Position numbers and translations under genes: made by a program. The notes under the pieces are model-generated. The model saw only the letters and a list, made by a program, of their open reading frames with translations, did not search any database and was not told where the DNA came from. Positions 2,258-63,109 of a stretch of DNA of 64,000 bases are shown here, piece after piece. Positions within the stretch are counted from its first letter, which is position 1; every line of letters starts with the position of its first letter. Origin of the DNA: a virus; IMG/VR virus record IMGVR_UViG_3300047409_000171, positions 1 through 64,000 of that record, one strand, 5' to 3'.

Positions 2258-2260
2258 GCC

Positions 2261-5371: not shown

Positions 5372-5376
5372 TCGCC

Positions 5377-9347: not shown

Positions 9348-9350
9348 GGC

Positions 9351-9380
9351 GAGGCCCGTCTGCGTAAACAGGCGGACCTC
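9351..9380 (+). other. Strong intergenic hairpin
   Basis: GAGGCCCGTCTG (9351-9362) pairs with CAGGCGGACCTC (9369-9380) across a six-base loop: ten Watson-Crick pairs, one G-T pair and one mismatch. No T-run follows, so it is not a classical terminator. It marks the border between the head genes and the HNH gene that opens the cargo island. Confidence 0.5.
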
Positions 9381-9407
9381 TAACCACAACCGAATGAGGG
9401 TTCGGAA

Positions 9408-11020: not shown

Positions 11021-11460
11021 GGAAAGAGCTTCCAACCAAGCTAGAAGACGGCCGCGTTACTTACGGCCCACTAGCCAGCCGCAAATCAGATGGCGCGTAT
11101 GGTGGGTTTTTTGTTCAAGGACCATGCGGCGCAAGACTCAAAATCATTGCAAGCGGCGGCGATCCTGATGATATCGAATCTCAGGGTTGGGAGCATGTTT
11201 CAGTCTCGACCGAGAGACGGCCGCCGAACTGGCAGGAAATGTGTTTCGTTAAAGACCTATTTTGGTCTGAGGATGAGTGCGCTATCCAATATCATCCACC
11301 CAAATCAGAATACGTGAACAATCATCCTTACTGCCTGCATTTGTGGAGCAGGAGAGACGGAACGATTCCTATGCCGCCATCGATCCTAGTTGGCGTAAAA
11401 AGCCGTGGAGTTCTTTCTGAGGCGGAAGCCAAATATTTGCGCCAGCAAATGGGACTATGA
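11017..11460 (+). CDS. Conserved phage/prophage protein (DUF7694-like)
   Basis: The 147-residue protein contains GWEHVSVSTERRPPNWQEM, VKDLFWSEDECAIQYHPP and YCLHLWSRRDG, with conserved His, Trp and Asp. From memory this pattern matches a small uncharacterised phage family (DUF7694). The function is unknown. It overlaps the neighbouring genes by four bases on each side and so belongs to the same transcript. Confidence 0.55.
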   Translation: MRKELPTKLEDGRVTYGPLASRKSDGAYGGFFVQGPCGARLKIIASGGDPDDIESQGWEHVSVSTERRPPNWQEMCFVKDLFWSEDECAIQYHPPKSEYVNNHPYCLHLWSRRDGTIPMPPSILVGVKSRGVLSEAEAKYLRQQMGL

Positions 11461-12872
11461 TGGACGCGGTTACAGCAGCGGCAGTGCAGGTCCAATGGGA
11501 TGGAAAGCCAAAAACCATTGTGCTGTGCCATGGGTGCTGGGACTTGTGCCACCTCGGGCACATCCGCCATTTGCAGGAAGCCAAAGCGCTTGGCGGGGCG
11601 AATGCCTACCTGATCGTATCGGTCACGGCGGACAAGTGGGTCAACAAGGGCGTAGGCCGTCCGCACTTCAGCCATGAGCAGCGGGCGGAAGCATTGCGAG
11701 CTCTGGAGTGCGTGGACGAGGTGTTTATCAATCACGACGAGGGATGCTGGGAACTAATCCGCAAGATCAAGCCCGCGTTCTACGTCAAGGGTGTGGACTA
11801 CGTCGGGGTATCGACTGAGGGCTTGGAGAAAGAGCGGCAGGCCATAGTTGAGGTCGGCGGCGAACTCCGGTTCACGCATTCAAGGAAGTGGTCATCCTCG
11901 CAGTTGCTCAACACGGAGCGGTTCTCCGACGAGATTTGCGCCTACCTGGAGACGATGAAGGCTGCGGACGCCAAGGGCCGGATATTTGAGGCCTTCGATA
12001 AGGCGGACAAGAAGCAAATCCTGTTCGTTGGCGAGCAGATCGAGGATGTGTATCGGTACGTCCAAGGGCTCGGCCGAGCGTCGAAGGAGTTGATGCTGGC
12101 GACGGTCGAGACCGGCCACGAGACGTTCTCTGGCGGAATTACAGCGTCCCAACTACATGGCGAGTGGCGCAACACCAACGTCGTGACGGGCTCATATCCA
12201 ATCACCAAGACGCGCTACGTCGATTCGGACTTCAACAAGAAGCTGTTTGATGTCTATTCGGCGCGCGAGATCAGCATGACGGCATGGGAGAGGGCCGAGT
12301 TTAGGGACCGCTTGACGGATGCTATTGGCCTCCATGACGTTGTGATCGTGAACGATTTCGGCCACGGTTTGATCGGGGATATTGAGCGGAACGCCTTGCA
12401 GAACACGGGGTTTTTGGCGGTGAACTGCCAGACCAACGCTGGCAATTACGGGTTCAATCTCATCACCAAGTACCCGAAAGCGCACTATGTCTGCATTGAC
12501 GACCCAGAGGCGCGGCTGGCGGCCGGGATGCAGCGGGAGCCCATCTCGAGCGTGGCGTTCTCGCTATCGCAGCGGATGGCCTGCAAGCGGTTCCTGATCA
12601 CCCATGGCCGGTACGGGTCGGACTGGTTCCACCAGAACTCGTCATTCCAGGTTGGCCGCGCGCCAGCGCTGGCTCAAGGCGGGGTGGATACGATGGGCGC
12701 GGGGGATGCAGTGATGGCCGTTACCGCGCCATTGGTCGCCGCGGGGCTCGACATGCAGTCCGTGGCGCTGGTTGGCAACATCGTGGGGGCGATCAAAGTG
12801 TCAATCCTTGGCCACCGTCGGCACGTTGGGCGGCAGGAGATTATTCAGACGGTGGAGGCCCTACTCGCATGA
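11457..12872 (+). CDS. Nucleotidyltransferase-PfkB kinase fusion (HldE-like, reversed order)
   Basis: The 471-residue protein has two domains. Residues 20-160 form a cytidylyltransferase-like fold with the H-x-G-H motif (CWDLCHLGHIRHL) and an S-S-S-Q/T-L-type end (KWSSSQLLN). Residues 175-470 form a ribokinase-type domain with DTMGAGDAVMAV near residue 405, which carries the catalytic Asp. Bacterial HldE does heptose-7-phosphate kinase and heptose-1-phosphate adenylyltransfer, but with the kinase first; here the order is reversed. The SIS and transketolase-like neighbours support an activated heptose-like product. Confidence 0.72.
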   Translation: MMDAVTAAAVQVQWDGKPKTIVLCHGCWDLCHLGHIRHLQEAKALGGANAYLIVSVTADKWVNKGVGRPHFSHEQRAEALRALECVDEVFINHDEGCWELIRKIKPAFYVKGVDYVGVSTEGLEKERQAIVEVGGELRFTHSRKWSSSQLLNTERFSDEICAYLETMKAADAKGRIFEAFDKADKKQILFVGEQIEDVYRYVQGLGRASKELMLATVETGHETFSGGITASQLHGEWRNTNVVTGSYPITKTRYVDSDFNKKLFDVYSAREISMTAWERAEFRDRLTDAIGLHDVVIVNDFGHGLIGDIERNALQNTGFLAVNCQTNAGNYGFNLITKYPKAHYVCIDDPEARLAAGMQREPISSVAFSLSQRMACKRFLITHGRYGSDWFHQNSSFQVGRAPALAQGGVDTMGAGDAVMAVTAPLVAAGLDMQSVALVGNIVGAIKVSILGHRRHVGRQEIIQTVEALLA

Positions 12873-13060
12873 CAGATTTGACGGAAGAATCTCTATCGGA
12901 ACTGATGAAAGCTATTCGTGCCGAGTGGGTGATTAAGCCCATTCAATTGGTAGTCACGCAAGAAGGTATAGCGCGGATGCGCGCACTCTGCGCTGACGAC
13001 CCAGAATTTAAGAAGCGAGTAATCGCAGAATTTCCGCAGGTGGAGGCGTTGCTGGCATGA
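12869..13060 (+). CDS. Hypothetical protein, 63 aa
   Basis: A small helical protein starting MTDLTEESLSELMKA, coupled by ATGA overlaps to the kinase fusion and the next gene. No domain is recognised. Confidence 0.5.
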   Translation: MTDLTEESLSELMKAIRAEWVIKPIQLVVTQEGIARMRALCADDPEFKKRVIAEFPQVEALLA

Positions 13061-13407
13061 GCCTATCATCCGCCTATTCAGGCATGAGTGCGGTCGCGAG
13101 CGAGTTTCAGGTGGCCATAGATTCGATTAAGGATAGGGCTCCGGAGCGTTTCGTGGATGCCGTCATCTGGCAAGACTTCGTCCATGATAGGGTGTCCATC
13201 CGGACAGAATTCGTATTAGTAACGCGGCGCGACATGGATGATGCGCGTAATTCTCGGCATCTAAATTCGCTAGTCGCCGCCCGTGTACTCAAGGCTATCG
13301 GCATCTCCGATGACCCATCTCAACAGGCAAAGCGTCTCCGTACGGAGCGCAGGCAGTTGCTGGCGAGGGGCAAGGAAGCGGCATCACGGAAGGCGCGACT
13401 GGCATGA
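13057..13407 (+). CDS. Hypothetical protein, 116 aa
   Basis: A mixed alpha/beta protein with a basic C-terminal helix (RRQLLARGKEAASRKARLA). It is coupled to neighbours on both sides by four-base overlaps. No domain is recognised. Confidence 0.5.
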   Translation: MSLSSAYSGMSAVASEFQVAIDSIKDRAPERFVDAVIWQDFVHDRVSIRTEFVLVTRRDMDDARNSRHLNSLVAARVLKAIGISDDPSQQAKRLRTERRQLLARGKEAASRKARLA

Positions 13408-13973
13408 ATGCGAGGTTCAAATTGGCGGAAATATCATGCCGCTACGAGGCTCTGACCAATGGCTTGGCCGATATCCGCTCCGAGCCCAACGCCTACCAGA
13501 CCGTAATCGACATGATCACCCACATGGGCAACGGCAAGGCGCGGCTGTTCTTCGTGGGCAACGGTGGGTCGGCGGCGGTCGCTTCGCATTGCGCAATTGA
13601 CTACATGAAGGCAGGCGGGTTCGCCACGTTCGGACCTGGGGACGCTGCGCAGATGACGTGCATCGGGAATGATCTCGGGTTCCATAACGTGTACTCGCTG
13701 CCGATTGAACGGCATGGGCAATTGGGCGACGTGCTGTTTGCTATTTCTAGTTCAGGGATGAGCGAGGACATTCTAGACGCGGTGGCGACTGCTAGGCGCA
13801 AGATGATGAACGTAGTCACCCTCAGTGGTTTCGGAGAGGGCAATTTCCTTCGCAAGAAGGGGCAGGTTAACTTCTACGTGCCGTCGAATCGGTATGGCGT
13901 CGTGGAAATAGCGCATCTGGCCATCCTGCATTCGATACTGGACGAAGTGGTTGAATTGGAGAGGCAAAAATGA
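13404..13973 (+). CDS. SIS-domain isomerase, GmhA-like
   Basis: The 189-residue protein is a single SIS domain: VGNGGSAAVASHCAIDYMK (phosphosugar loop), CIGNDLGFHNVYS, GDVLFAISSSGMSEDIL and VVEIAHLAILHS. It aligns by eye with sedoheptulose-7-phosphate isomerase GmhA. The metal-ligand His residues are present, but the Glu that follows the first His in E. coli GmhA is Asp here. It would make a heptose-7-phosphate, the substrate expected for the kinase fusion upstream. Another phosphosugar substrate cannot be excluded. Confidence 0.75.
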   Translation: MNARFKLAEISCRYEALTNGLADIRSEPNAYQTVIDMITHMGNGKARLFFVGNGGSAAVASHCAIDYMKAGGFATFGPGDAAQMTCIGNDLGFHNVYSLPIERHGQLGDVLFAISSSGMSEDILDAVATARRKMMNVVTLSGFGEGNFLRKKGQVNFYVPSNRYGVVEIAHLAILHSILDEVVELERQK

Positions 13974-18952: not shown

Positions 18953-19627
18953 ATGGCCCTCACCCAATCCTCCCCCAAATTCTGGGCACCAAACCAGCGC
19001 GTTCTGGACTATCTGACCAACGAAGTCATCGCCAAGGACGCCAAGGTTCTGGACGTCGGGCCCGGGCATGCGCCATTCAAGCGGGCGAACGTATCAGTTG
19101 ATTTTGTCGACGTGCCTGGCGTTGCCAATCTGGTGAAGTGCGATCTGGCGAATGAACCGCTGCCGTTTGCAGATAAGGAGTTCGATTTCGTCTACGCGCG
19201 GCATATCCTCGAGGATATGTTCAACCCGTTCCCGCTGATTAAGGAAATGCAGCGCGTTGGCAAAGCTGGGTATATTGAATGCCCGTCGCCGATTGCTGAG
19301 TTAGGTCGCGGCGTTGATGGCGGCTCTCCGCCGTTCCGCGGATTTCACCACCATCGATACATCACATGGATGTTCGGCAAGGAACTGCGGCTGATCTCGA
19401 AATACCCGTTCGTCGAGTACCTGAAGTTTGACGATGCGGCGATCGACAAGATGCTGGCGCAGGACCGCTACTGGAATACTTATTGCTGTTGGGAGGGGGA
19501 GATTACATTCGCGCACCGACAGTCTCCATTGAATTTTGACATTCCTCGCGACTACGCGCTGATCCTGAATGAGGCGATGGAGCGGTCGAAGGAAGCGACG
19601 GACATTTTCTTCTCCAACATCAAGTGA
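18953..19627 (+). CDS. SAM-dependent methyltransferase (class I)
   Basis: The 224-residue protein has a Rossmann motif I (VLDVGPGHAPF), then VDFVDVPG (acidic end of strand 2), and FDFVYARHILEDMFNP (motif IV-like), as in the Methyltransf_11 group. It would methylate a small molecule, sugar or protein. Being in the sugar cassette suggests O-methylation of a glycan. It follows the HNH stop directly. Confidence 0.7.
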   Translation: MALTQSSPKFWAPNQRVLDYLTNEVIAKDAKVLDVGPGHAPFKRANVSVDFVDVPGVANLVKCDLANEPLPFADKEFDFVYARHILEDMFNPFPLIKEMQRVGKAGYIECPSPIAELGRGVDGGSPPFRGFHHHRYITWMFGKELRLISKYPFVEYLKFDDAAIDKMLAQDRYWNTYCCWEGEITFAHRQSPLNFDIPRDYALILNEAMERSKEATDIFFSNIK

Positions 19628-23394: not shown

Positions 23395-24438
23395 ATGCCT
23401 CCCTATGCCGACGTGCTGAAATGGGAACATCTGCCGTTCCCCAAGTCCCTGCCCAGCTTCCAAAAGCTGTTCCCGGATGATGCCGCTTGCGCCTCGTACC
23501 TGGAGCGCGTGCGGTGGGAAAAAGGCTTCGTCTGCCCGCTGTGCGAGGCCAAGGGTGAGCCCTACCGCTTCACCGCTCGCCCCGGCGTGCTGCGCTGTAA
23601 GGCATGCAGACAGGACACGGCTTTGACGGCCGGAACGGTCATGGAGCGGACCCGAACGCCGCTTACCGTGTGGTTTTGGGGCGCTTATCTCGTTGCGAGC
23701 ATGACGCCCGGCCTTTCGGCTATGCAATTTCAGAGGCAGCTTGGCCTCACCCGATACGAAACCGCCTTCCAAGTCCTGCACAAGCTGCGGGCTGGAATGG
23801 TGCGCCCCGACCGTGACCGGATCGGCGGTGCCATCGGCATCAAGGACCACGTTGAGGTGGACGAAACCTACATCGGTGGCTCGATCCGGGGCGAAGGTAA
23901 AGGCGTCCATGCTGACGACAAGTCCATCGTGATCGCTGCTGTTGAGGTTCGGACCCGGCCGCCCAAGAAAGGCGACAAGCCGACCCGTCGCGGCGGTCGA
24001 TATGCCGGACGGCTGCGGATGGAAGTCATCAGCGACCGCACCGCGCAATCCATGGTCAACTTCGTTGAAGCGGCTGTGGCACCAGGCGCGATGGTCGTGA
24101 CGGACGGCGCGCCCGGCTACGCCAGCCTGACCAAAAAGGGCTTCGAACATCTGCCGGTTGTCGAAGCTGGCAACCCCGAGGTGGCGGAAGAATACCTGCC
24201 CATCGTTCACCTTGTCTTTTCGAACCTGAAAAGCTGGCTGACCGGATGCCACCACGGGGTCAGCCCTCAACATCTGCAGGCTTACCTCAATGAGTTCACG
24301 TTCCGCTTTAACCGGCGGTTCTACCCGTTCAACGCCTTCCGCTCGCTGCTCGGCATCGGCGCAGGCAATGAAAGCCCGACCTATGACGAGCTTTACAGCG
24401 GAGAGTGGGAACACCCTAGGATTAGTGATCATGGGTGA
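23395..24438 (+). CDS. IS1595-family transposase
   Basis: The 347-residue protein has an N-terminal zinc ribbon (CPLCEAKG ... CKAC), then a DDE-type core: HVEVDETYIGG with the first Asp and MVVTDGAPGYASL with the second. It ends with YLNEFTFRFNRRFYPFNAFRSLL, the typical E/N-containing block of the ISXO2-like group. It seems complete and would cut and join the element ends. Confidence 0.88.
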   Translation: MPPYADVLKWEHLPFPKSLPSFQKLFPDDAACASYLERVRWEKGFVCPLCEAKGEPYRFTARPGVLRCKACRQDTALTAGTVMERTRTPLTVWFWGAYLVASMTPGLSAMQFQRQLGLTRYETAFQVLHKLRAGMVRPDRDRIGGAIGIKDHVEVDETYIGGSIRGEGKGVHADDKSIVIAAVEVRTRPPKKGDKPTRRGGRYAGRLRMEVISDRTAQSMVNFVEAAVAPGAMVVTDGAPGYASLTKKGFEHLPVVEAGNPEVAEEYLPIVHLVFSNLKSWLTGCHHGVSPQHLQAYLNEFTFRFNRRFYPFNAFRSLLGIGAGNESPTYDELYSGEWEHPRISDHG

Positions 24439-24680: not shown

Positions 24681-24754
24681 GGACCACAAGCATTAAGGTG
24701 ATGCACCGGCCTCTTAACCCGGGGAACACGGATCGTTACCGTGGTGGTCCACCA
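24681..24754 (+). tRNA. tRNA-Lys (CTT)
   Basis: Acceptor GGACCAC/GTGGTCC, discriminator A, CCA encoded. D stem GCAT/ATGC. Loop CTCTTAA gives CTT. It has the same C-C at 31-39 as the first Lys tRNA, and T stem CACGG/CCGTG. Confidence 0.72.
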
Positions 24755-24761
24755 TTTCTAT

Positions 24762-24835
24762 GCGGCTATAGTTCAAAGGCAGATCGCCCGGTTGTCAACC
24801 GGAGGACGGGGGATCGATACCCCCTAGCCGCGCCA
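24762..24835 (+). tRNA. tRNA-Asp (GTC)
   Basis: Acceptor GCGGCTA/TAGCCGC, discriminator G, CCA encoded. Stem CCCGG with loop TTGTCAA gives GTC. G73 fits Asp. Confidence 0.85.
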
Positions 24836-24836
24836 T

Positions 24837-24912
24837 CTCTGCGAAGCTCGTGCAGGAAGAGCACCCGCCTTGGAAGCGGGAGGTCGGTGGTCGGAGCACC
24901 GCGTGGAGACCA
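24837..24912 (+). tRNA. tRNA-Pro (TGG)
   Basis: Acceptor CTCTGCG/CGTGGAG with two G-T pairs, discriminator A, CCA encoded. Stem CCCGC/GCGGG encloses CTTGGAA, giving TGG. A37 replaces the G usual in Pro tRNAs. Ser(GGA) is excluded by the short variable loop. Confidence 0.68.
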
Positions 24913-24916
24913 ATTC

Positions 24917-24992
24917 GGGCGTTGAGCCAGATGGGACGGCCGGCTGCTCATAACAGTCAGAGGACGGGGTTCGATTCCCCGACGGTCCACCA
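24917..24992 (+). tRNA. tRNA-Met-type (CAT)
   Basis: Loop CTCATAA in stem GGCTG/CAGTC gives CAT; T arm CGGGG-TTCGATT-CCCCG is regular; CCA is encoded. The acceptor GGGCGTT/ACGGTCC has two mismatches. It could be elongator Met or an Ile tRNA modified at C34. Confidence 0.65.
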
Positions 24993-24997
24993 TTTAT

Positions 24998-25073
24998 TCC
25001 CGTAGAGCCATCTAGGTGAGGGCGGCCGGCTGTTAACCGGCGAAGGCGCGTTCGAATCGTGCTGCGGGAGCCA
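24998..25073 (+). tRNA. tRNA-Asn (GTT)
   Basis: Acceptor TCCCGTA/TGCGGGA, G73, CCA encoded. Stem GCCGG/CCGGC with loop CTGTTAA gives GTT. T arm GCGCG-TTCGAAT-CGTGC. Confidence 0.87.
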
Positions 25074-25077
25074 ACAC

Positions 25078-25151
25078 GCTGCTATCGTCTAATGGAAGGA
25101 TGCTGGTCCCTCAAACCGGCGGTGCGGGGTCAGAACCCGCTAGCAGCTCCA
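25078..25151 (+). tRNA. tRNA, probably Glu (CTC)
   Basis: Acceptor GCTGCTA/TAGCAGC, CCA encoded. Loop CCCTCAA in stem CTGGT/ACCGG gives CTC, but position 33 is C, not T, and the discriminator is T, as in Gly tRNAs. The D-arm sequence (ATCGTCTAATGG) also recalls Gly and Gln tRNAs. Identity is uncertain. Confidence 0.6.
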
Positions 25152-25152
25152 T

Positions 25153-25231
25153 ACTCGCGTAACCGGCCGTGATTACGAATCACAGGAACCGTAACTGGAG
25201 CATGGGAGTTCGACTCTCCCCGCGAGTGCCA
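25153..25231 (+). tRNA. Atypical tRNA-Arg-like (ACG), D arm missing
   Basis: Acceptor ACTCGCG/CGCGAGT, G73, CCA encoded, and a regular T arm GGGAG-TTCGACT-CTCCC. The anticodon hairpin (loop TTACGAA, anticodon ACG) starts only about 15 bases in, so no D arm fits. About 19 bases follow it before the T arm and contain a near repeat of the lead segment (TAACCGG and TAACTGG). Confidence 0.5.
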
Positions 25232-25238
25232 TTTTCAT

Positions 25239-25315
25239 CTGCGTGTAGCTCAGTCAGGTAGAGTACACCCCTCGGAAGGGTGGGGCCGCAGGATCGAAGC
25301 CTGCCACGCAGACCA
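25239..25315 (+). tRNA. tRNA-Pro (CGG)
   Basis: Acceptor CTGCGTG/CACGCAG, A73, CCA encoded. D stem GCTC/GAGT. Stem CACCC/GGGTG with loop CTCGGAA gives CGG. A37 again, as in the other Pro tRNA here. Confidence 0.82.
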
Positions 25316-25318
25316 TTT

Positions 25319-25388
25319 TGCGGAGACCAAGGCGGTAAGTCCGGCTCTGAACCGGATGAAGTGGGATCGTGCCCTACCTCCGCAGCCA
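25319..25388 (+). tRNA. tRNA-Gln (CTG)
   Basis: Acceptor TGCGGAG/CTCCGCA, G73, CCA encoded. Stem TCCGG/CCGGA with loop CTCTGAA gives CTG. The D arm is short, total length 70. Confidence 0.8.
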
Positions 25389-25392
25389 ACAC

Positions 25393-25467
25393 GGCGCATT
25401 GTCAGAGCGGTCATGTGCTCGCCTGCAAAGCGATGCTAGGGGTGTTCGACTCACCCATGCGCCTCCA
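25393..25467 (+). tRNA. tRNA-Cys (GCA)
   Basis: Acceptor GGCGCAT/ATGCGCC, T73 as expected for Cys, CCA encoded. Loop CTGCAAA gives GCA. Confidence 0.85.
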
Positions 25468-25468
25468 C

Positions 25469-25550
25469 ACCCCGGTAGCCGGAGCGATCTTCTAAATCGT
25501 CACCCGTAGCGGAGCTGAAATCGCGTGTTCGAATCACGCTCGGGGTGCCA
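25469..25550 (+). tRNA. Atypical tRNA-Arg-like (TCT), D arm missing
   Basis: Acceptor ACCCCGG/TCGGGGT, G73, CCA encoded, T arm GCGTG-TTCGAAT-CACGC. The hairpin GCGAT-CTTCTAA-ATCGT (anticodon TCT) begins 15 bases in, leaving no D arm. A 22-base segment follows, with a near repeat of the lead (TAGCCGGAGC and TAGCGGAGC). It has the same design as the gene at 25153. Confidence 0.5.
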
Positions 25551-25551
25551 T

Positions 25552-25628
25552 CTTGCCGTCGCCCAACTGGAGAGGGCCTCCGTCTCCTAAACGGATGTGT
25601 CGGTGTTCGAGTCACCGCGGCAAGGCCA
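25552..25628 (+). tRNA. tRNA-Arg (CCT)
   Basis: Acceptor CTTGCCG/CGGCAAG, G73, CCA encoded. D stem GCCC/GGGC. Stem TCCGT/ACGGA with loop CTCCTAA gives CCT. A fully regular cloverleaf, in contrast to the two other Arg genes. Confidence 0.85.
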
Positions 25629-25633
25629 ATTCT

Positions 25634-25722
25634 GGTGAACTAAGCGGGTGGGACCCGTCCTCGTTTGCTAAACGAAGGGCACCTCAAAAAGGTGTGAGAA
25701 TCGTGCTCTCAGTTCACCGCCA
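25634..25722 (+). tRNA. tRNA-Ser (GCT)
   Basis: Acceptor GGTGAAC/GTTCACC, G73, CCA encoded. Loop TTGCTAA gives GCT. A long variable arm forms CACCT/AGGTG, as required for Ser. Length 89. Confidence 0.85.
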
Positions 25723-25726
25723 ATCT

Positions 25727-25801
25727 GCAGGTATGGGTCATTGGTTGATCGTCAGCCTTCCAAGCTGTTCCAAGGGAGTTCGATTCTCCCTGCCTGCTCC
25801 A
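25727..25801 (+). tRNA. tRNA-Gly (TCC)
   Basis: Acceptor GCAGGTA/TGCCTGC, T73 as in Gly tRNAs, CCA encoded. Stem TCAGC/GCTGT with loop CTTCCAA gives TCC. Confidence 0.85.
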
Positions 25802-25802
25802 C

Positions 25803-25877
25803 GGAGCCTTCGTCTACTGGCTAGGATCACGGTTTTTCACACCGTAGGAACGGGATCGATACCCGTAGGCTCTACCA
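25803..25877 (+). tRNA. tRNA-Glu (TTC)
   Basis: Acceptor GGAGCCT/AGGCTCT, A73, CCA encoded. Stem ACGGT/ACCGT with loop TTTTCAC gives TTC. Confidence 0.83.
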
Positions 25878-25882
25878 ATTAT

Positions 25883-25956
25883 GGCCGGTTCGTTTAGTGA
25901 CAGGACGCGAGGCTTTGAATCTCGCTGCGGTGGTTTGATTCCATCACCGGCTGCCA
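25883..25956 (+). tRNA. tRNA-Gln (TTG)
   Basis: Acceptor GGCCGGT/ACCGGCT, G73, CCA encoded. Stem CGAGG/TCTCG with loop CTTTGAA gives TTG. Confidence 0.83.
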
Positions 25957-25957
25957 A

Positions 25958-26028
25958 CCCGATGCCTCCGGCGAGGACGCAGCCCTCATAAGGCTGCCAG
26001 CCCTGATCGACACAGGGCTTCGGGACCA
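25958..26028 (+). tRNA. tRNA-Met-type (CAT), second copy
   Basis: Acceptor CCCGATG/CTTCGGG with one mismatch, A73, CCA encoded. D stem CCTC/GAGG. Stem CAGCC/GGCTG with loop CTCATAA gives CAT. It differs widely from the CAT tRNA at 24917, so one of the two may read Ile AUA. Confidence 0.78.
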
Positions 26029-26039
26029 ATTATTTTTAT

Positions 26040-26117
26040 GCTGGTCATGCTCGACGGCAATGAGCACGCCGACTGTGAATCGGTGGGACAGGGATTCGAC
26101 TTCCCGGGCCAGTACCA
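26040..26117 (+). tRNA. tRNA-His (GTG)
   Basis: Acceptor GCTGGTC/GGCCAGT with an outer G-T pair, A73, CCA encoded. Stem GCCGA/TCGGT with loop CTGTGAA gives GTG. The usual G-1:C73 pair of His tRNAs is not evident. Confidence 0.8.
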
Positions 26118-26122
26118 AATTT

Positions 26123-26197
26123 GGGAGTGTGGTGAAGCGGTATCATGCCGGTCTCCAAAACCGTGCGTCTCGGGTTCAAATCCTGACACTCTCGCCA
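26123..26197 (+). tRNA. tRNA-Trp (CCA)
   Basis: Acceptor GGGAGTG/CACTCTC, G73, CCA encoded. Loop CTCCAAA gives CCA. Last tRNA of the array. Confidence 0.85.
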
Positions 26198-40629: not shown

Positions 40630-43616
40630 TGGGCAAGGGGTCAAATACGACTCAGACCAATTCGTCCAGCGCTTCCTCGACGCGCCCGGACGATAACGCC
40701 TACCAAGCCTATTTGGCGCTGATGAACCGCGCCAGCGGCGTCGCCAGTACCCCGTATCAGGCCTATGGCGGTGAGGAGACAGCACCGATCAATGCTCAGC
40801 AGCAGGCTGGATTTGGGGCGATCAACACTGCGCAAGGCAACATCACCGCGACTGGTACGCCGATCAGCGCGGCGGACATCCAGCGATATCAAGACCCGTA
40901 CACCAGCAGCGTTATTGATGCGACGCAAAAGGACTTCGATGTCCAGAACGCGCGCCAGCAGTCTCAGACCACGGGCAATGCGGCGGCTCAGGGGGCTTTG
41001 GGCGGGGATCGATCGGCGGTCGCAGCGGCATTGACGGCGGAGGGCCAGTCGAGGTCTCAGGCACCGATTATCGCAGGATTGCGGTCTCAGGGCTATCAGT
41101 CGGCGGTCAAGACGGCTGAGGATCAGCAACAGCAGGCGTTGCGGGCTGGCGTGGCTGGACTTCAGGGCGGTCAGGCCATGGTTGGGGCCGGCACGCTCGA
41201 GCAGCAGACCCAGCAGGCCAAGGATACTCAAGGGCGGATGGATTACTACCAGGCGCAGGGTTATCCCTTCCAAGTTGCACAGTGGCTTGCCCAGATTGAT
41301 ACCGGCGTCGGGTCTCAGCTTGGCGGCACGGGGACGAACACGGGGACATCGGTCAAACAGGGACCACAGCCGAATCAGTTTGCGCAATTGGCAGGCCTTG
41401 GTTTGGCTGGGGCGAGCATGTTTGCCAATCGTGGCGGGCGCGTGTCTGGCGTGCATCGGTTTGCCGACGGTGGCGCAATTAGGCTTTCTGACGATGAAAT
41501 TCACGCTTTCCGCGAATGGAAGGCCAAGCATTATCCGGACGATAAGGTCGCTGGCGTTCACGGCTATGCCGGAGGCGGTTCCCCATGGGGCATTCAGCAG
41601 ACATGGATACCGCAAGTTGGGGGTATTGCGGCTGGCCGTGGTGCTCCGCAGGCACCGTCATTGCCGTCTGACCCTGGCTCGCCGGAGCAGCAAAAGGGAC
41701 TGTCTGCGGACCAGATGAAGGGCATCGGAGGGATTGGGAAGAAGATTTTCGGCGGAGATGATTCCAACATTGGAGATTTCACCGGCACTGTAAATCCAGA
41801 CGGCTCTACCACTGGCCAGAGTTATGGCGGCTATGAAGGGGACAGCGGTGGGTGGGGTTCTATGGGCGGCGTGGAATATCCGGCCTTTAACCATGGTGGT
41901 CGGGTGCGCCGATACGCCACCGGCGGTTCCCCATTGCTTGAGGATGACGATGGAACCTACCGGCCCATGGCGGCTGGCGTAGGGGCATCGCGGCCGGCCT
42001 TTGATGTGGTCAACCCGGATCAGCCGTTCCGGATGCTGGACCGGCCCTCGGAGGACAGCGAGCCGCCGGCGCTCGATAATTGGCGCAAGGGCGTCGATAG
42101 GGACGTTGGCCTTGGCCAGAGTTCCCAGAATGAGGCGGCACCGTTGCCACCGGAGGTCATATCCGGCCGGTCCAAGCCGCCTGTGATGGCCCGTGGTGCG
42201 CCTGAGGAAGGCGACGAGGGGTCGTCCCAGACTCTGGGCTATTCCGCCCCGAGGCTTATCAGCGGCGTGGGTGCCCCTCCGCCGCAGTCTGAAGGCACTC
42301 CGGACGAAGGTTTCCTATCCCGACTTGGTGTCAGAATGACGCCGGAGCTCAAACAGGGGCTATTGCAAGCCGGATTGTCCATGATGGCAACCCGCCACGG
42401 CGGGCCAGGTTCGTTCCTGCAGGCGGCCGGCGAAGCTGGCATGACGGGGGTCGGTGCCTATTCGCAGACGCAGCAATTGGCACAGGAACAGGCCGAGAAG
42501 GCGCGCAAGGAGGCATTCGAGCGCGAGAAGTTTGAGGCTCCGTTCACCCGTTCGACATTGGCACAGCAGGAGACCGCGCGGCACAACAAGGCTCAAGAGG
42601 CCAAGGACTACAAGCCTACCTATGGGGTGATTCGGAAGGATATTGATCCGAACACAGGATTCCAGAAGGAGGTCTATGGCTGGATCGACCCCAACACGAA
42701 GAAGGTGGTCGAGGCACCGGATCAGAAGGCCGCTTCCGAGTCGGTCGGCTCGCCGGTCCCGCCGTCTACGGCCGCAGCTTCAACGGGCTATGACTATAGC
42801 AAGGATGCGCCTCGCGTCGACAAGGGCGCAGATGTTCCTGAGCCGAAGGGCCTTTCCGGTAAATCCGCCGCATCCGTTAAGGCTGACGCTGAATACTACG
42901 CCCAGACTGGCAAACTGCCTCCGGTTCGCGCTGGGCAAAGTCCAGTTGCCGTCGTCCAGCAGAACTATCGCAACGCGGTGCAAAACTACGGCAACGCTCT
43001 AGCCGAATCGCGCGGCATCAACCCGTCGCAGTTGGCGGAGATGTGGCGGACGGCTCCGGGGCAACTGCGGTTTGTTCTTGGAGCGGACGGTCGCGCCACG
43101 GTATCGCTCGGCACTGCGGTCCGGCATCTGGATACTATCCAGCAATTGGCTGATGCATGGGGGTCTGGGAATGTGCAGGCTCTCAACAAGATAAAGGCGG
43201 CTGTTGCCAAGCAGTTCGGCGATGCGTCCGTCACCAATCTTGAATCGGCTGGCAGCATTGTCGGGCCTGAAATCATCAAGGCGCTCGGCGTTGCTGGTGC
43301 TGGTACCGAACATGATCGTAATACGGCAGCGGCACAGTTTGCCGCCGCGCGGACGCCGGAACAGATAAAGGGAGCGGTCAAGACCGTGCAGGCCTTGTTG
43401 GGTGGCCAGCTTGAGGGCAAGAAGCGTCAGGCTGCAGCGGCCGGCGTATCGGAAGAAAAATTCAAGAGCCTCATCGGGGATCGACCATATGAGATTCTGA
43501 GCGGGTCCGAGAAGGGGCATGGCACCACGGGCGAGCCAGCCAAATCCGAAAAGCCAAAGACCGTTATCCAGAATGGCCACACTTATACGCTGCAACCTGA
43601 TGGCAGTTACAAATGA
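40629..43616 (+). CDS. Large internal virion / ejection-type protein
   Basis: The 995-residue, Gln/Ala/Gly-rich protein has an N-terminal helical part with ADIQRYQDPYTSSVIDATQ and NARQQSQTTGNAAAQGALGG. A middle part carries GGxV motifs (NRGGRVSG, FADGGAIR, NHGGRVRR, YATGGSPL). The C-terminal helical domain (about 740-960) has QNYRNAVQNYGNALAESRGI. Podoviral DNA-ejection proteins share this style. It overlaps both neighbours by one to four bases. Confidence 0.6.
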   Translation: MGKGSNTTQTNSSSASSTRPDDNAYQAYLALMNRASGVASTPYQAYGGEETAPINAQQQAGFGAINTAQGNITATGTPISAADIQRYQDPYTSSVIDATQKDFDVQNARQQSQTTGNAAAQGALGGDRSAVAAALTAEGQSRSQAPIIAGLRSQGYQSAVKTAEDQQQQALRAGVAGLQGGQAMVGAGTLEQQTQQAKDTQGRMDYYQAQGYPFQVAQWLAQIDTGVGSQLGGTGTNTGTSVKQGPQPNQFAQLAGLGLAGASMFANRGGRVSGVHRFADGGAIRLSDDEIHAFREWKAKHYPDDKVAGVHGYAGGGSPWGIQQTWIPQVGGIAAGRGAPQAPSLPSDPGSPEQQKGLSADQMKGIGGIGKKIFGGDDSNIGDFTGTVNPDGSTTGQSYGGYEGDSGGWGSMGGVEYPAFNHGGRVRRYATGGSPLLEDDDGTYRPMAAGVGASRPAFDVVNPDQPFRMLDRPSEDSEPPALDNWRKGVDRDVGLGQSSQNEAAPLPPEVISGRSKPPVMARGAPEEGDEGSSQTLGYSAPRLISGVGAPPPQSEGTPDEGFLSRLGVRMTPELKQGLLQAGLSMMATRHGGPGSFLQAAGEAGMTGVGAYSQTQQLAQEQAEKARKEAFEREKFEAPFTRSTLAQQETARHNKAQEAKDYKPTYGVIRKDIDPNTGFQKEVYGWIDPNTKKVVEAPDQKAASESVGSPVPPSTAAASTGYDYSKDAPRVDKGADVPEPKGLSGKSAASVKADAEYYAQTGKLPPVRAGQSPVAVVQQNYRNAVQNYGNALAESRGINPSQLAEMWRTAPGQLRFVLGADGRATVSLGTAVRHLDTIQQLADAWGSGNVQALNKIKAAVAKQFGDASVTNLESAGSIVGPEIIKALGVAGAGTEHDRNTAAAQFAAARTPEQIKGAVKTVQALLGGQLEGKKRQAAAAGVSEEKFKSLIGDRPYEILSGSEKGHGTTGEPAKSEKPKTVIQNGHTYTLQPDGSYK

Positions 43617-45280
43617 GCGATGAGAAGCCGCCGTTTGATCCGAACAAGCCGTTTGAGGCTGAAAAGCCTGCGTTCAATCCGGATCAGCCATTTGAGACGC
43701 CAAAGGACTTTTCTTGGTCCAAGGCTGTCACCGATATTCCTTCCGAAATCGGAAATGAGGCTGGCAAGGCGTGGTCGGATATCTCTGCATTAAGCAATCG
43801 TGGCCAGCAGGGTCCGATTGAAGGATTGTTGACGACTGGCAAGGCGGCGTTGGCAGTGCCTCGGCTGGCGATGTCCCCAGTTACGGGGGCTGCAAGGTCT
43901 CTTGTCGGTCACACGATGGCAAATCTCGAGCACAAGGCCGGTGAGTACATCAATCCCGAGGTCGCGGCTAAGGATGATCCGGAGAAGATGTACGAAACAG
44001 CGAAGGGCGATGTTGACACGGCGATGTCTGCAATGCGTCCTGCAGGCAATCCTGTGAAGATCGCGGGTGCCTACGAGTGGAAAACCCCTAAGCCGTCCCA
44101 ATCGCCTGCCGTTGGCGTTACGAAGCAGCCGGAAACTGAGGCGTTCTTTGATGCTGCGGACGCCAATTATTCCAACATGCGCGGGCTTGGCGTTGAGATT
44201 CACCCGCAGGCAATGAACCGCGTGGCGGATAACATCCTCACCGAATTGCACACGGAGGGTTATCGTCCGCGAAATGCGCCCGGCGTATTTGATGCGGTTG
44301 AGGAACTGCGCGCGCCAGCGGGCGCAAACCATGAAATCTCAGATATTGATTCGGTAAGGAAGGTGCTGAATAGGGCTCGGATGGACCCCGCACAAAGGGA
44401 TGCGGCTCGCCGAGCCATCAACCATATCGACGACTATCTCGCGGACCTGCACAAAAATCCCAATGACATTGTGGTAAACCCGCACTTTGCGCAGAAGCTT
44501 TCGGATGAGGCTGTTGCGGCGAGGGCTAACTATGCCGCTGCCAAGCGAGCAGAGGACGTTGATGAAGCGCTGGACAAGGCTGAGCGTGCTGCGGCGCGGG
44601 CTGGCTCTGGCGGGAATATCAACAACGCCATTCGTCAGGCCCTAAGTTCGTTGCGTAACAACAAAAAGAAGATGGCTGGGTGGACCGATGCCGAGAAGGC
44701 AGAACTGGATGCTGTAATCAACGGAAGCCGGACCGGGAATGCTGCTCGTCAGGCTGGCAAGTTTGCGCCGCACGGCATTGTCTCTACGGTCATGTCGGCT
44801 GGCGCTGGGCATGCTTTAATGCCCGGCATTGGCGAGATTGCCGTACCTGGGCTCGGGTTCATCGCCAAAAAGATCGGAGATCGGATTACTCAGTCCGGCG
44901 CTGATCGCCTGAGCAACGTCATCAAGTCTCGGTCTCCCCTTGGGAAGCAGACCAGCATTAACACTGCGGCGCAGTCGGCATTTGCTCCGCAATCAAGCCG
45001 TCCGGCGATCACGTCAACTGTGGCCAATGCGGGCTTGCCGAGCCCCACCCAAAACCTGCCCCTTCGGCAGATTCAGAACCTCATGGGGGCAGCAGCAGAC
45101 GATGAAAAGAAGCGCCCACGGAAACGGGACAACGAGCCAGATCAGGGTGCAGGCGGCAAGTCTCATGGTGGCGGCATTCGACGGGAAACTGGCGGCGCGG
45201 TCAAGCGCGCATTGCAGTCCTTGCAGGAGTATGCGGACGGCGGCGCTACCGAGATCAGCGGAGTTGGCTTGCGTCCGTAG
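43613..45280 (+). CDS. Internal virion protein with DPNKPFE repeats
   Basis: The 555-residue protein begins with three near copies of the unit (F)DPNKPFE / NPDQPFE in the first 35 residues. A long helical body follows (residues 150-350), then a hydrophobic part VSTVMSAGAGHALMPGIG. The C-terminus has RETGGAVKRA and YADGGATE. It ends exactly at the parS palindrome. It is likely a second ejection-type protein. Confidence 0.58.
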   Translation: MSDEKPPFDPNKPFEAEKPAFNPDQPFETPKDFSWSKAVTDIPSEIGNEAGKAWSDISALSNRGQQGPIEGLLTTGKAALAVPRLAMSPVTGAARSLVGHTMANLEHKAGEYINPEVAAKDDPEKMYETAKGDVDTAMSAMRPAGNPVKIAGAYEWKTPKPSQSPAVGVTKQPETEAFFDAADANYSNMRGLGVEIHPQAMNRVADNILTELHTEGYRPRNAPGVFDAVEELRAPAGANHEISDIDSVRKVLNRARMDPAQRDAARRAINHIDDYLADLHKNPNDIVVNPHFAQKLSDEAVAARANYAAAKRAEDVDEALDKAERAAARAGSGGNINNAIRQALSSLRNNKKKMAGWTDAEKAELDAVINGSRTGNAARQAGKFAPHGIVSTVMSAGAGHALMPGIGEIAVPGLGFIAKKIGDRITQSGADRLSNVIKSRSPLGKQTSINTAAQSAFAPQSSRPAITSTVANAGLPSPTQNLPLRQIQNLMGAAADDEKKRPRKRDNEPDQGAGGKSHGGGIRRETGGAVKRALQSLQEYADGGATEISGVGLRP

Positions 45281-45296
45281 TGTTTCACGTGAAACA
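45281..45296. promoter_or_regulatory. parS-type ParB binding site
   Basis: TGTTTCACGTGAAACA is an exact 16-bp palindrome and equals the canonical bacterial chromosomal parS sequence bound by ParB. It begins right after the stop of the upstream gene. No ParA or ParB gene is seen in the window, so host ParB would be the likely binder. It is the only copy I found by eye. Confidence 0.85.
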
Positions 45297-45346
45297 GTGC
45301 CCCTATTTCAAGTTGCACCGATAAGTGGTAAGTTCCATCCACCCGA

Positions 45347-45433: not shown

Positions 45434-46354
45434 ATGGTCGACGTTGTCGCTCTTAGAGCCGCGAATGCCCAGCGGTGGGCAAATGCCAAGGTAACGCGGA
45501 ATTTCACCGCGATAGCCCACGATCTTGTCATGGCCAAGGCCCGGTATCAGGCCGTAGAGGCCAAGACCGGCGTTCCGTGGTTTGTGATTGCCGTCATCCA
45601 TGAGCGCGAGTCGTCCCAGAACTGGGGTAGGTCGCTGGCTCAGGGCGACCCGTGGAGCCACGTTTCGACGCATGTTCCGGCTGGTCGAGGACCGTTTCCA
45701 TCGTGGGAAGCTGCAGCCATTGACGCCTTGGTGAACTGCGGCCCCTACCTCGCTCGGAAGAAATGGCGGGACGCTGGAGAAATTCTCACTAATCTCGAGC
45801 TATACAACGGCAGTGGGTACGCCTCTAAGGGGCGCCCATCGCCCTATGACTGGGCCGGCACCAACCAGTATGTCTCCGGCAAATACATCGCCGACGGGGT
45901 CTATGACCCGTCCCACGTCGACACCCAACCAGGCTGTGCCGGAATGATCCTCGCCATGATGGCGTTGGACGCAACGATCAAGATGGATGGCGTGGTGGTC
46001 GTGCCGCCCATCTTCCCGCCGATCCCCGTCGCAATCCGGGACGGCGCATGGCTGCAGACCTCGCTCAATCGGCTCGGGGCCAACCCGCAATTGGCTGTGG
46101 ACGGGACCGTTGGGCCCGCCACCAGAAACGCCGTGCGGGCGTTCCAGATGAGCATGGGGCTCGTCGTGGATGGTCTTGTCGGCCCGGCCACGTTTGCCGC
46201 GCTGGACAAGGCCCTAGCTGCAGGCAAGCCAATTCCGCAACTTCCCGTGCCGCCTGAAATCGTATTGCCGCCGCCCGGGACGCAGGCCCGCGCCGATCTA
46301 GCACCGACGTTCTGGGGCCGCGTACTGGATTTATTCAGACCAAAGGTGAAATAG
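45434..46354 (+). CDS. Endolysin with C-terminal peptidoglycan-binding domain
   Basis: The 306-residue protein has a lysozyme-like N-terminal domain: VPWFVIAVIHERESSQNWG with a likely catalytic Glu near residue 56, then HVPAGRGPFPSWEAAAIDAL and a YNGSGYASKGRPSPYDWAG block. A linker rich in Pro and Val follows. A PG_binding_1 domain spans residues 200-260 (LQTSLNRLGANPQLAVDGTV ... RAFQMSMGLVVDG). It would cut the cell wall at lysis. No signal peptide is seen, so a holin is needed. Confidence 0.82.
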   Translation: MVDVVALRAANAQRWANAKVTRNFTAIAHDLVMAKARYQAVEAKTGVPWFVIAVIHERESSQNWGRSLAQGDPWSHVSTHVPAGRGPFPSWEAAAIDALVNCGPYLARKKWRDAGEILTNLELYNGSGYASKGRPSPYDWAGTNQYVSGKYIADGVYDPSHVDTQPGCAGMILAMMALDATIKMDGVVVVPPIFPPIPVAIRDGAWLQTSLNRLGANPQLAVDGTVGPATRNAVRAFQMSMGLVVDGLVGPATFAALDKALAAGKPIPQLPVPPEIVLPPPGTQARADLAPTFWGRVLDLFRPKVK

Positions 46355-46356: not shown

Positions 46357-46674
46357 ATGTTTGACCTAAACAATTGGGGAAGGGTGCTTGTTTCGACCAT
46401 CGTTGTGGGAGGATTTTTTTATATCCTGTTCTTGATTATTACACTGAAAGCACAGGGCAGCAGTCCTTCGGAGGTGCAGCTTGTGATGCTTGGCGCACTT
46501 GGTCAGGCGTTCGGTCAGGTCATCTCATATTGGGTTGGATCATCGGCAAGCAGTGCCAAGAAAGATGAGGCCAGCGCCAAAAAGGACGAGGTAATCCAGA
46601 CTATGGCAGCTACCGCAACCGGTACTGGTTCAGGAACGAATAATCATGCCGCTGGCTCGGGGTCGAGGCCATGA
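46357..46674 (+). CDS. Small two-helix membrane protein (holin-like)
   Basis: The 105-residue protein has a membrane helix STIVVGGFFYILFLIITL and a second at VQLVMLGALGQAFGQVISYW. Its tail repeats SAKKDEASAKKDE and ends Gly/Ser-rich. It sits two bases after the endolysin. It is probably part of the lysis set, as holin or antiholin. Confidence 0.58.
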   Translation: MFDLNNWGRVLVSTIVVGGFFYILFLIITLKAQGSSPSEVQLVMLGALGQAFGQVISYWVGSSASSAKKDEASAKKDEVIQTMAATATGTGSGTNNHAAGSGSRP

Positions 46675-47162
46675 TTTCGGGCATCGTCGCAATCCTCGGG
46701 GCGATTACCGGGCTAGTCCCGGCAATCATGCAGTGGCTAACATTGAAGGCTAACAATGCACACCAGCAGGCAATGGCGGAGCTCCAGCTCGAAGCTGCTA
46801 AGCAAGGAACGGCGCTACAGATTGATTTGGCTAATGCTCAGGCCGATATCAAAGAGGCAGAATATATTCACTCTTTTGCTGCTGGCACTTCTGGGAACAG
46901 GTTTGTCGACGCTTTGTCGGTATTCGTGCGGCCCTACATTACATTGGTTTTCTTCCATTTCTGGCTTTTGATCGAGGCCGCCTTGTTCGTCTATGGCGTG
47001 AACAACGGCTACGACTTAGGGCAACTCTCCAAACTGCTGTGGGACGAAAACACATCCGGTATTTTTGGTGCCATCATAGGATTTTGGTTCGGCACTAGGA
47101 TGATGACGCGGGGCTCTCAGATGGCAGCAACTCTTGCAGTGACGCAGAAAGGGAAGTCTTGA
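46671..47162 (+). CDS. Holin-like protein, three membrane segments
   Basis: The 163-residue protein begins with a hydrophobic segment ([21 protein letters not shown]). A helical amphipathic stretch follows, then [20 protein letters not shown] and [10 protein letters not shown]. The FVDALS-x-x-VRP-x-ITLVFF pattern recalls the GTA-type three-TM holin family. It would release the endolysin by opening the inner membrane. Its last 68 bases overlap the convergent HNH gene. Confidence 0.62.
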
Positions 47163-54212: not shown

Positions 54213-54242
54213 CCACGATGATTTTTGGTGTATGAACCGTGC

Positions 54243-54572
54243 ATGGCTAAAAAACAGACCAGTTTTGAGCGGGTTATCTACGCGGTGGTGGCCAAGTTCG
54301 AGGCCGAGCACGGAACCGTAAACGGTGCCATGACGTGGCTGGCCAACGGCGTTGGCGTCAGCAAGCAGGCGATAAACCAGGCCAAGACAAAAGGCCGGTT
54401 CCCGGACGGATATCTGGCAAAAATCAGCAAATTCACGGGGATACCGGTGCCGACGCTGCAGGGCGACCCGACGGATGAAGTCGTGGAATTGTCGCGGCGC
54501 TGGCGCATATCGGTACGGGATACCGAGGTGGCGCTGATCCGCATCGGATTGGACCACGCAAATCGAAAGTGA
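54243..54572 (+). CDS. Cro/CI-type HTH regulator
   Basis: The 109-residue protein has an N-terminal helical part and a helix-turn-helix WLANGVGVSKQAINQAKTKG near residues 33-55, then YLAKISKFTGIPVPTLQGDP. The size suits a repressor or Cro-like protein without a cleavable domain. It faces away from the leftward operon across the palindrome, so it probably controls both promoters. ATG 54243 was preferred to GTG 54225. Confidence 0.65.
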   Translation: MAKKQTSFERVIYAVVAKFEAEHGTVNGAMTWLANGVGVSKQAINQAKTKGRFPDGYLAKISKFTGIPVPTLQGDPTDEVVELSRRWRISVRDTEVALIRIGLDHANRK

Positions 54573-60479: not shown

Positions 60480-60680
60480 ATGAGCCAAACCAGCATAGCG
60501 GCAGAGATCGCCACCCGCACCGCAGCGGCAGAGCGCAAACTGGCGGTGGCTCTCGGCCACGACGCGATCGACGTTTTCGATCTGTGGAGCCGGGCCTATT
60601 TCGAGACGTTCAATCGGGCATGGGACGCACCGCGCCCGGCTGTGAACCTGCCCCTCCGGATGATCGGAAACATGACGTGA
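60480..60680 (+). CDS. Hypothetical early protein, 66 aa
   Basis: A helical product starting MSQTSIAAEIATRTAAAERK, with YFETFNRAWDAPRPA near the end. It overlaps the next gene's GTG start. The function is unknown. Confidence 0.5.
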   Translation: MSQTSIAAEIATRTAAAERKLAVALGHDAIDVFDLWSRAYFETFNRAWDAPRPAVNLPLRMIGNMT

Positions 60681-62404
60681 CGCAGCCAATTCCAGACGCA
60701 GCGCTTGATGATCGGTTGGGCTTTGTCGGCACGGCCGGATCAGGCAAGAGCTACAACGCCATGGGCCGCGTCGAGCGGCTGCTGTCGCGCAAGGCGCGCG
60801 TGTGCTGCGTCGATCCGCTCGGGGTATTCTGGGGATTGCGCCTGGATGCAGACGGCAAATCACCGTCCGGTTTCAACATTCCTATTTTCGGCGGACCGCA
60901 CGGTGACTTGCCGCTGACGGAACATTCCGGCGCCTTGATCGGCGAGACCGTGGCCGGCATGGCGGAATCCTGCATCATTGACCTGAGCGAAATCGGCACC
61001 AAGGCTGGCGAACGTCGGTTCATGCTTCATTTCCTCACGGCACTGTACCGCAAGGCCAACGGCGAGCCGCTGCACCTCGTCATTGACGAAGCGGATATGT
61101 TCGCGCCGCAGAAGATCAACGACAAGGAAGGCGAGGCCGCGAAGCTGCTCGGCATGATGGAGACCGTGGTCAGGCGTGGGCGTATCAAGGGCTTTATCCC
61201 ATGGCTGATTACCCAGCGGCCGGCAGTGATCGCCAAGGACGTTCTCAGCCAAGTTGACGGGTTGGTGGCGTTCAAGCTCACGAGTTCGCAGGATCGCGAC
61301 GCGATCAGCGCATGGGTCGAAGGCTCGGCCGACAAGGACGATTGGAAGGCCATGCGCGGCGCGCTGCCGGCGATGGAACGCGGCCAAGGCGTGGTGTGGA
61401 TCCCTGGGCGCGGGATCATGGAGACGGTCCGATTCCCGGAAAAATTCACGTTCGATTCGTCCCGCACGCCGAAGCGCGGCGAGAAGAAATCGGCGGCGGC
61501 GCTGAAACCACTGGACCTCGGCTCGCTCAAGGAGCGGCTGGCGACCGTCGACGCGGAGACCAAGGCGAACGACCCCAAGGCGTTGCGCGCGCGGATTGTC
61601 GAGCTTGAGCGGCAGAAGGCGACCACGCCACCGTCGGCAATCTTTGCGGCATCAAATGCAACTGCTCGAGCAGAAGGAGACCGCGCCGGATTTGAGCGTG
61701 CGGACCGCCAATGGCATGGCGTGATGACGGCGCCATGGGCCGCGTTCACCAATGCGTGGCAGTCCTACGAACAGTCGCGCGACCGTTTGAACGATGCAAT
61801 CCGCGAAATCTCGCATGTTGTCGATGTGGCGTTGCAATACCGCGCGCCGCCGAAATCGGGCTCGCCAGCCATCCCGGCACCAGCCCCGAAGCGCGCGCCG
61901 CTCGCCCCAGCGGTAGTGCGCAAACCGTCTCCTGCGGCGAATGGGGACGGTAGCCTTCCCAAGGGTGAGCGCCTGTGCCTGACCGCAATCGCGCAGAACA
62001 GCAACGGCATCACCCGCCAGCATTTGACCGTTGTCACCGGTTACAAGCGGTCGACTAGGGATGCCTATATCCAGCGATTGCGGGAGAAGGGCTGCGTTGA
62101 TGAGCGCGGTAGCCGTCTCTACCTGACCGACGCTGGCGGCGAAATGCTTGGCCCGTTTGACCCGCTGCCGACCGGTGCCGCGCTGCAGGATCACGTCCTT
62201 GGCACGTTGCCAGAAGGCGAGCGCGCCGTGCTGGCACTCATCATCCCCGCCTATCCCAACGGCGTCGATCGCGATACGATCAGCATCGAAACCGGCTATA
62301 AACGGTCCACGCGGGACGCCTATATTCAGCGGCTCAGCACTCGGGAATTGGTCGATGCCAGCCGCGGTGGCGTCGTGGTCGCATCGCAGGATTTGTTCGC
62401 ATGA
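60677..62404 (+). CDS. HerA/VirB4-like ATPase with tandem winged-helix repeats
   Basis: The 575-residue protein has Walker A (FVGTAGSGKSYNAM, residues 17-30), Walker B (LHLVIDEADMFAP, near 133), and a LITQRPA segment. This is the set of HerA/VirD4-type pump ATPases. A coiled-coil linker follows, then two winged-helix repeats that share TGYKRSTRDAYIQRL (near 453 and 539). It may move or process DNA. GTG 60677 overlaps the prior stop. Confidence 0.75.
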   Translation: MTQPIPDAALDDRLGFVGTAGSGKSYNAMGRVERLLSRKARVCCVDPLGVFWGLRLDADGKSPSGFNIPIFGGPHGDLPLTEHSGALIGETVAGMAESCIIDLSEIGTKAGERRFMLHFLTALYRKANGEPLHLVIDEADMFAPQKINDKEGEAAKLLGMMETVVRRGRIKGFIPWLITQRPAVIAKDVLSQVDGLVAFKLTSSQDRDAISAWVEGSADKDDWKAMRGALPAMERGQGVVWIPGRGIMETVRFPEKFTFDSSRTPKRGEKKSAAALKPLDLGSLKERLATVDAETKANDPKALRARIVELERQKATTPPSAIFAASNATARAEGDRAGFERADRQWHGVMTAPWAAFTNAWQSYEQSRDRLNDAIREISHVVDVALQYRAPPKSGSPAIPAPAPKRAPLAPAVVRKPSPAANGDGSLPKGERLCLTAIAQNSNGITRQHLTVVTGYKRSTRDAYIQRLREKGCVDERGSRLYLTDAGGEMLGPFDPLPTGAALQDHVLGTLPEGERAVLALIIPAYPNGVDRDTISIETGYKRSTRDAYIQRLSTRELVDASRGGVVVASQDLFA

Positions 62405-62836: not shown

Positions 62837-63109
62837 ATGGCGAAACACGAATTGAAAAGCTGGCCTGAGTTTTTCGTTCCGGTGTTTGAGGGCAAGAAAA
62901 ACTTCGAACTCCGAAAGAACGACCGCCACTATCGCGCTGGCGACACGCTGCGGCTTCGCGAGTGGGAGCCGAACACAGCCAAATACAGCGGCCGGGAGGT
63001 GATTAAGGTTGTCACCTACGTCCTTGAAGGCATCGGCCCCGGCGGCATCACGCCGCTTCATGGCCTGTCGCGCGAATTTGCAATCCTCTCACTGGCCGAC
63101 GCCGCATGA
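62837..63109 (+). CDS. DUF3850 (ASCH/PUA-like) protein
   Basis: The 90-residue protein has HELKSWPEFFVPVFEGKKNF, ELRKNDRHYRAGDTLRLREW and VVTYVLEG, the signature of DUF3850. The ASCH-like fold suggests RNA or nucleotide binding. Preceded by an AGGAGAGATAG ribosome site. Confidence 0.82.
   Translation: MAKHELKSWPEFFVPVFEGKKNFELRKNDRHYRAGDTLRLREWEPNTAKYSGREVIKVVTYVLEGIGPGGITPLHGLSREFAILSLADAA

Follow-up and report, generated by a model that had tools for sequence, protein, structure and literature searches.

An exact chromosomal-type parS site in a phage that encodes no recognisable ParB

The IMG/VR virus record IMGVR_UViG_3300047409_000171 is 70,155 bp long, and its positions 1 to 64,000 were analysed as one stretch of DNA, termed here the window (64 kb). 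In this window, a 16-bp palindrome, TGTTTCACGTGAAACA, which is identical to the published chromosomal parS consensus, lies between genes for virion structure and genes for lysis. The features of the locus are the following.

43613–45280, + strand: head-like structural gene (555 aa), the last virion gene; PHROG 21712, major head protein, E = 1.5e-19
45281–45296, no strand assigned: exact 16-bp palindromic parS (ParB box), TGTTTCACGTGAAACA, read directly from the sequence, 16/16 positions of the consensus
45312–45318, + strand: GTTGCAC, a half-parS-like heptamer 16 bp downstream of the parS site, which could easily be due to chance
45434–46354, + strand: endolysin gene with a C-terminal PG_binding_1 domain, starting 137 bp after the end of the parS site
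46357–46674, + strand: small membrane-like protein with an N-terminal hydrophobic stretch, possible lysis accessory; PHROG 1544, unknown function
46671–47162, + strand: second small membrane-like protein, possible lysis accessory; PHROG 6637, unknown function

The initial annotation had described an exact ParB box placed between the last virion gene and the lysis genes, and both statements hold: all 16 positions agree, the PHROG 21712 gene is upstream, and the endolysin gene is downstream. The first base of the site directly follows the TAG stop codon of the head-like gene, which ends at 45280. Within the window, TGTTTCACGTGAAACA is the sole match at up to 3 mismatches, and a search for further copies in the genome, as the annotation had proposed, gave none at up to 2 mismatches across the whole record. 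The number of exact matches expected in 64 kb is 7e-6 from base composition and 7.5e-6 under an order-2 Markov model, confirming that a match by chance is very unlikely. Perfect palindromes of at least 16 bp are not unique to this locus, since the window holds four of them, the parS site included; the evidence therefore lies in the identity with parS and not in palindromy. The longest palindrome of the window, a perfect one of 18 bp (CATATCCTCGAGGATATG), is found at 19202–19219, and several GTTNCAC heptamers are scattered across the record.

Other explanations of the palindrome as a sequence element were rejected. A chance palindrome is ruled out by the expectation of 7e-6 and by the permuted-palindrome controls given below. 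An intrinsic terminator was not called, as the G+C-rich hairpin followed by a T run is lacking (the stem is followed by GTGCCCC), and the region folds as RNA no better than its shuffled versions (z = −0.55).

The endolysin shares 62% identity over its whole length with a protein of Bradyrhizobium phage ppBjS10J-1. This resemblance suggests that an alphaproteobacterial host is plausible or probable; a genome scan with the endolysin yielded no host assignment.

No match to ParB_N (PF02195) or to the ParA-type AAA_31 family (PF13614) was found in the whole 70,155-bp record, in agreement with the earlier remark that no ParA/ParB gene is visible. A DUF3850 protein (62837–63109), considered as a hidden ParB, was discarded because it stands alone and has no ParB domain. 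The record thus lacks the complete ParABS set of a phage-plasmid, i.e. its own ParB (PF02195) with a ParA-type ATPase. Since the phage record is devoid of parAB, the sequence at 45281–45296 is a parS-type site and not a chromosomal centromere; it is a single site with neither oriC nor parAB nearby. The tyrosine integrase of a temperate integrating phage (PF00589) was also without a match in the whole record, serine integrases being covered solely by the top-25 family lists. The record does encode its own DnaB helicase, RecT/Bet annealing protein, Holliday resolvase, and endonuclease VII proteins, together with an array of 14 tRNAs (window 24681–26197; Lys, Asp, Pro x2, Met, Asn, Glu x2, Cys, Arg, Gly, Gln, His, and Trp). 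Because partition genes and a tyrosine integrase were not found and because replication and recombination genes and 14 tRNAs are present, the record looks more like a virulent phage than like a plasmid-like prophage, and the latter suggestion of the initial annotation is not supported on the same grounds.

Several additional observations were made on this genome. A YdaS/Cro-like HTH protein (window 54225–54572), which scores below the Pfam cut-off, hints at a possible control of lysogeny. An IS1595-family (ISXO2-like) transposase with a zinc ribbon (window 23395–24438, PHROG 25593), located immediately upstream of the tRNA array, is an insertion element within the phage genome. A fused nucleotidyltransferase/PfkB sugar kinase in reversed HldE-like order (window 11457–13973), with a SIS-domain protein (GmhA-like) nearby downstream, suggests a phage-borne heptose/sugar-nucleotide pathway. 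The match to the large terminase is divided between the two ends of the record (window 1–304, with the match at 17–304, and positions 8782–10155 of stretch L002), which makes the record a nearly complete circular or permuted genome, probably a circularly permuted one with a small error at the join; the terminase reading frame has no clean continuation over the join. Gene 60584–62404 was not retained as the terminase, its PHROG match being weak and the better terminase match spanning the record ends. Its product looks like a HerA/FtsK-like (HerA-type) ATPase with weak terminase similarity and is 65% identical to a protein of G021, an otherwise largely different phage.

Relatives of the phage, as retrieved with the tail protein, the endolysin, and gene 60584–62404, are mosaic, and no relative with both flanking genes was obtained with any of these or with the head-like gene. 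Those possessing the tail gene only or the endolysin gene only mostly have no parS site. Among 28 relative records (~1.04 Mb), two contain a match to parS with at most 1 mismatch, TGTTGCACGTGAAACA in G003 and CGTTTCACGTGAAACA in G021, compared with about 0.04 such 15/16 versions expected. When 150 permuted palindromes were searched in 487 kb, the mean was 0.02 such matches and 1 of the 150 gave at least two, a test that is approximate as the control sample includes stretches chosen for their parS matches. The near-site of G021 is located elsewhere in its genome and is not syntenic with 45281–45296, and that of G003 lies between divergent regulator genes in partial overlap with repeats found there. 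Copies in relatives, for which the initial annotation had proposed a search, are thus present as two 15/16 versions, neither of them at the corresponding place; such a pattern suggests that parS was gained independently at different places and not by descent of one site.

In order to survey other phages, the INPHARED collection (50,697 records) was queried with 30 nt consisting of the 16-mer TGTTTCACGTGAAACA between Ns. Exact parS occurred in 286 of the 50,697 records, at 824 strand-places or 412 sites, counts that are inflated by RefSeq duplicates and many near-identical Listeria phages and that include some probable host contamination (e.g. small "Listeria phage LM 4-14-1" contigs and an Acinetobacter record with its match in a transporter gene). 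Two permuted palindromes, one of which kept the CACGTG core, were found in no INPHARED record. In IMG/VR, at least 120 stretches have exact parS, against 14 for one permuted palindrome. Of 20 named carriers of parS, 18 lack ParB_N, as do, among the matches listed, 40 of 44 IMG/VR contigs with a length of 20 kb or more.

The carriers include Herelleviridae of Listeria and Lactobacillus, phi29-like Salasmaviridae, Ruegeria phages such as DSS3P8, many actinobacterial phages, gokushoviruses, the T5-like Vibrio phage phi 3, and an inovirus. In the latter, "bajarodino virus 6" (PQ006149.1), six exact copies in 5.9 kb are spread over positions 635–5643, and three of them start at most 2 bases after annotated stop codons. 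Vibrio phage phi 3 (KP280063.1) has parS at 821–836 and 2934–2949, both in the terminal repeat, one of them between A1 and A2, which are early-transfer genes by analogy with T5. The number of sites is usually 1–4 in the named carriers, and several phages other than the present one have 2–6. Such copies could act as decoys if multiplying phage genomes titrated host ParB (and SMC) off the chromosome and thereby blocked host segregation or division to the benefit of the phage. The presence of a site in a genome that replicates but encodes no ParB, and the existence of multi-copy carriers such as the inovirus, are compatible with this idea; nevertheless, the single site found here, the usual 1–4 sites of named carriers, and the small importance of host segregation during a short lytic cycle make it quite unlikely.

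Many types and sizes of phage are represented among these carriers, linear-genome and ssDNA phages included. SMC is normally loaded by ParB-parS, and host ParB bound to phage parS might recruit SMC-condensin to organise or resolve replicating DNA, or might shield the phage from topology-sensing defences. The variety of carriers is in line with such a role, but sites in ssDNA phages of 4–6 kb are hard to reconcile with arm alignment, and we assign a low probability to this explanation.

The genes adjoining parS in other phages are unrelated to those found here (DNA polymerase/PurA, A1/A2, portal/protease, and early ORFs). This finding bears on a possible switch for lysis timing, in which host ParB spreading over the endolysin and other lysis genes would damp or delay their transcription until the phage copy number titrates ParB. 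The site does adjoin the lysis cassette, Caulobacter ParB produced in E. coli spread no further than about 2 kb from a single parS (PMC5815017), and genes next to parS are repressible by ParB in some species, although chromosomal ParB usually has weak effects on its neighbours (PMC7022226). Between the parS site and the endolysin gene, a promoter was not detected, and the unrelated neighbours in other phages imply that lysis control cannot be general. Overall, a lysis-timing switch appears improbable.

Several features of the survey are signs of selection. Among the matches listed, 48% of the sites are not covered by any open frame of 100 codons, versus 14% of random positions in the same IMG/VR loci (P = 4e-18), a pattern with which the earlier description of the site as lying in a neutral place agrees. 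Also among the matches listed, 51% versus 31% directly follow a stop codon, a difference that is confounded with intergenic location. Gordonia phages Orchid and Woes (genera Orchidvirus and Woesvirus) share the identical 16-mer in the corresponding intergenic gap, with the 200 bp on each side largely diverged. A symmetric variant, TGTTCCACGTGGAACA, is present in 58 records, of which Pseudomonas phages make up the largest group (17). This distribution is consistent with matching of the host's own parS variant, with the exception of RaK2-like Klebsiella jumbo phages, where TGTTCCACGTGGAACA is often inside a baseplate gene. We conclude that parS is strongly over-represented in ParB-less phages, with signs of selection. 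A functionless site, due to neutral coincidence or to capture of a chromosomal fragment, would fit the single copy and the lack of a match at the syntenic place in relatives. It is nonetheless very improbable in view of the expectation of 7e-6, the absence of chromosomal genes adjoining the site, and, in other phages, the strong enrichment of parS, its preference for intergenic DNA, and its conservation where the flanks have diverged.

The best explanation of these results, to which we give a fairly good probability, is that the site is a functional, cis-carried parS which is loaded by host chromosomal ParB and ties the phage DNA to host ParA/SMC. Host ParB is the presumed reader of the site since the phage encodes no recognisable ParB. 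Binding of host ParB at the site is, as a separate claim, highly likely; an identical 16-bp oligonucleotide was bound by Hyphomonas neptunium ParB in EMSA, with a mutated one as control (PMC6650430). Judging from the survey, many phages probably let host ParB load onto their DNA. The borrowing of host ParB put forward in the initial annotation is, as an inference, well supported by the exact site, by the absence of ParB and ParA, and by the recurrence of parS, well beyond chance and mainly in non-coding DNA, in phages that lack ParB; only its plasmid-like prophage version is not supported.

We infer binding in the host of this phage, spreading, recruitment of ParA/SMC, and benefit as successive parts of one model. 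Once the phage DNA enters the cell, host ParB-CTP dimers would load at 45281–45296, close into clamps, and slide ~1–2 kb to each side, thereby covering both the lysis cassette and the end of the head gene. Through this loaded ParB, the phage DNA would become linked to host ParA, to SMC, or to both. As the most likely benefit, phage genomes would be placed and retained on the nucleoid or at the pole, including their passage to daughter cells during slow or stalled infection of a non-growing host. We favour such placement and retention over lysis timing, SMC recruitment, and ParB titration. Counting against reading by host ParB, there is one copy here versus 2–6 in several other carriers, partition is of little use to a virulent phage whose lytic cycle is fast, and the relatives are mostly without the site, their two near-matches lying elsewhere.

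We see even chances that carriage of host parS without ParB is a widespread, selected strategy in tailed, filamentous, and microvirus-type phages of non-sporulating hosts. Virulent phages would, on that assumption, rely on ParB, a CTPase of the host, together with ParA and/or SMC, for placing, retaining, or protecting their genomes, and this phage would be a probable alphaproteobacterial example.

The site is in itself an ordinary parS; what is unusual is that a ParB-less phage carries one, and the breadth of the phenomenon. Its 16 bp are identical to those of chromosomal ParABS systems and the same as the H. neptunium parS shown to be ParB-bound (PMC6650430), but chromosomal parS lies near oriC/parAB, whereas the phage site does not and is single. 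The phage-plasmids P1 and N15 and extrachromosomal mycobacteriophage prophages (PMC7157519) similarly have a centromere-like site on phage DNA; in contrast to this record, which has neither ParA nor ParB and a site of chromosomal type, they encode their own ParA/ParB with their own parS. The same exact 16-mer is present, mostly without ParB, in Gordonia phages Woes and Orchid, Microbacterium phage Quhwah, Arthrobacter phage Nubia, and Listeria phage P100, which differ from this phage in family, host, and position of the site, some having at least two copies. In the papers searched, we found no remark on parS in these actinobacterial and Listeria phages, nor any earlier report of a phage parS without ParB in the literature searched.

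Bacterial chromosome segregation is centred on ParB-parS, which phages have been thought to encounter mainly by means of partition systems of their own. The closest parallel is phi29, whose genome (NC_011048) has four TGTTTCACGTGGAACA sites, which are parS variants, and no annotated ParB. Host Spo0J (ParB) has reportedly been implicated in the trapping of phi29 DNA in spores (Meijer et al. 2005, EMBO J 24:3647). Should an exact host parS be kept by hundreds of ParB-less phages, host ParB would be a common phage host factor, and phi29-Spo0J, the classic case, would illustrate a general phenomenon. Like phi29, the phage described here appears virulent, has no annotated ParB/ParA, and carries host-type parS; it differs by having one perfect 16/16 site in an unrelated 70-kb phage instead of several sites in a phage of a spore-forming host. 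Its probably alphaproteobacterial host is not known to make endospores, unlike that of phi29, so spore trapping cannot be the benefit and another one is needed. We regard the present case as a probable phi29-type borrowing of host ParB in a probably non-sporulating host.
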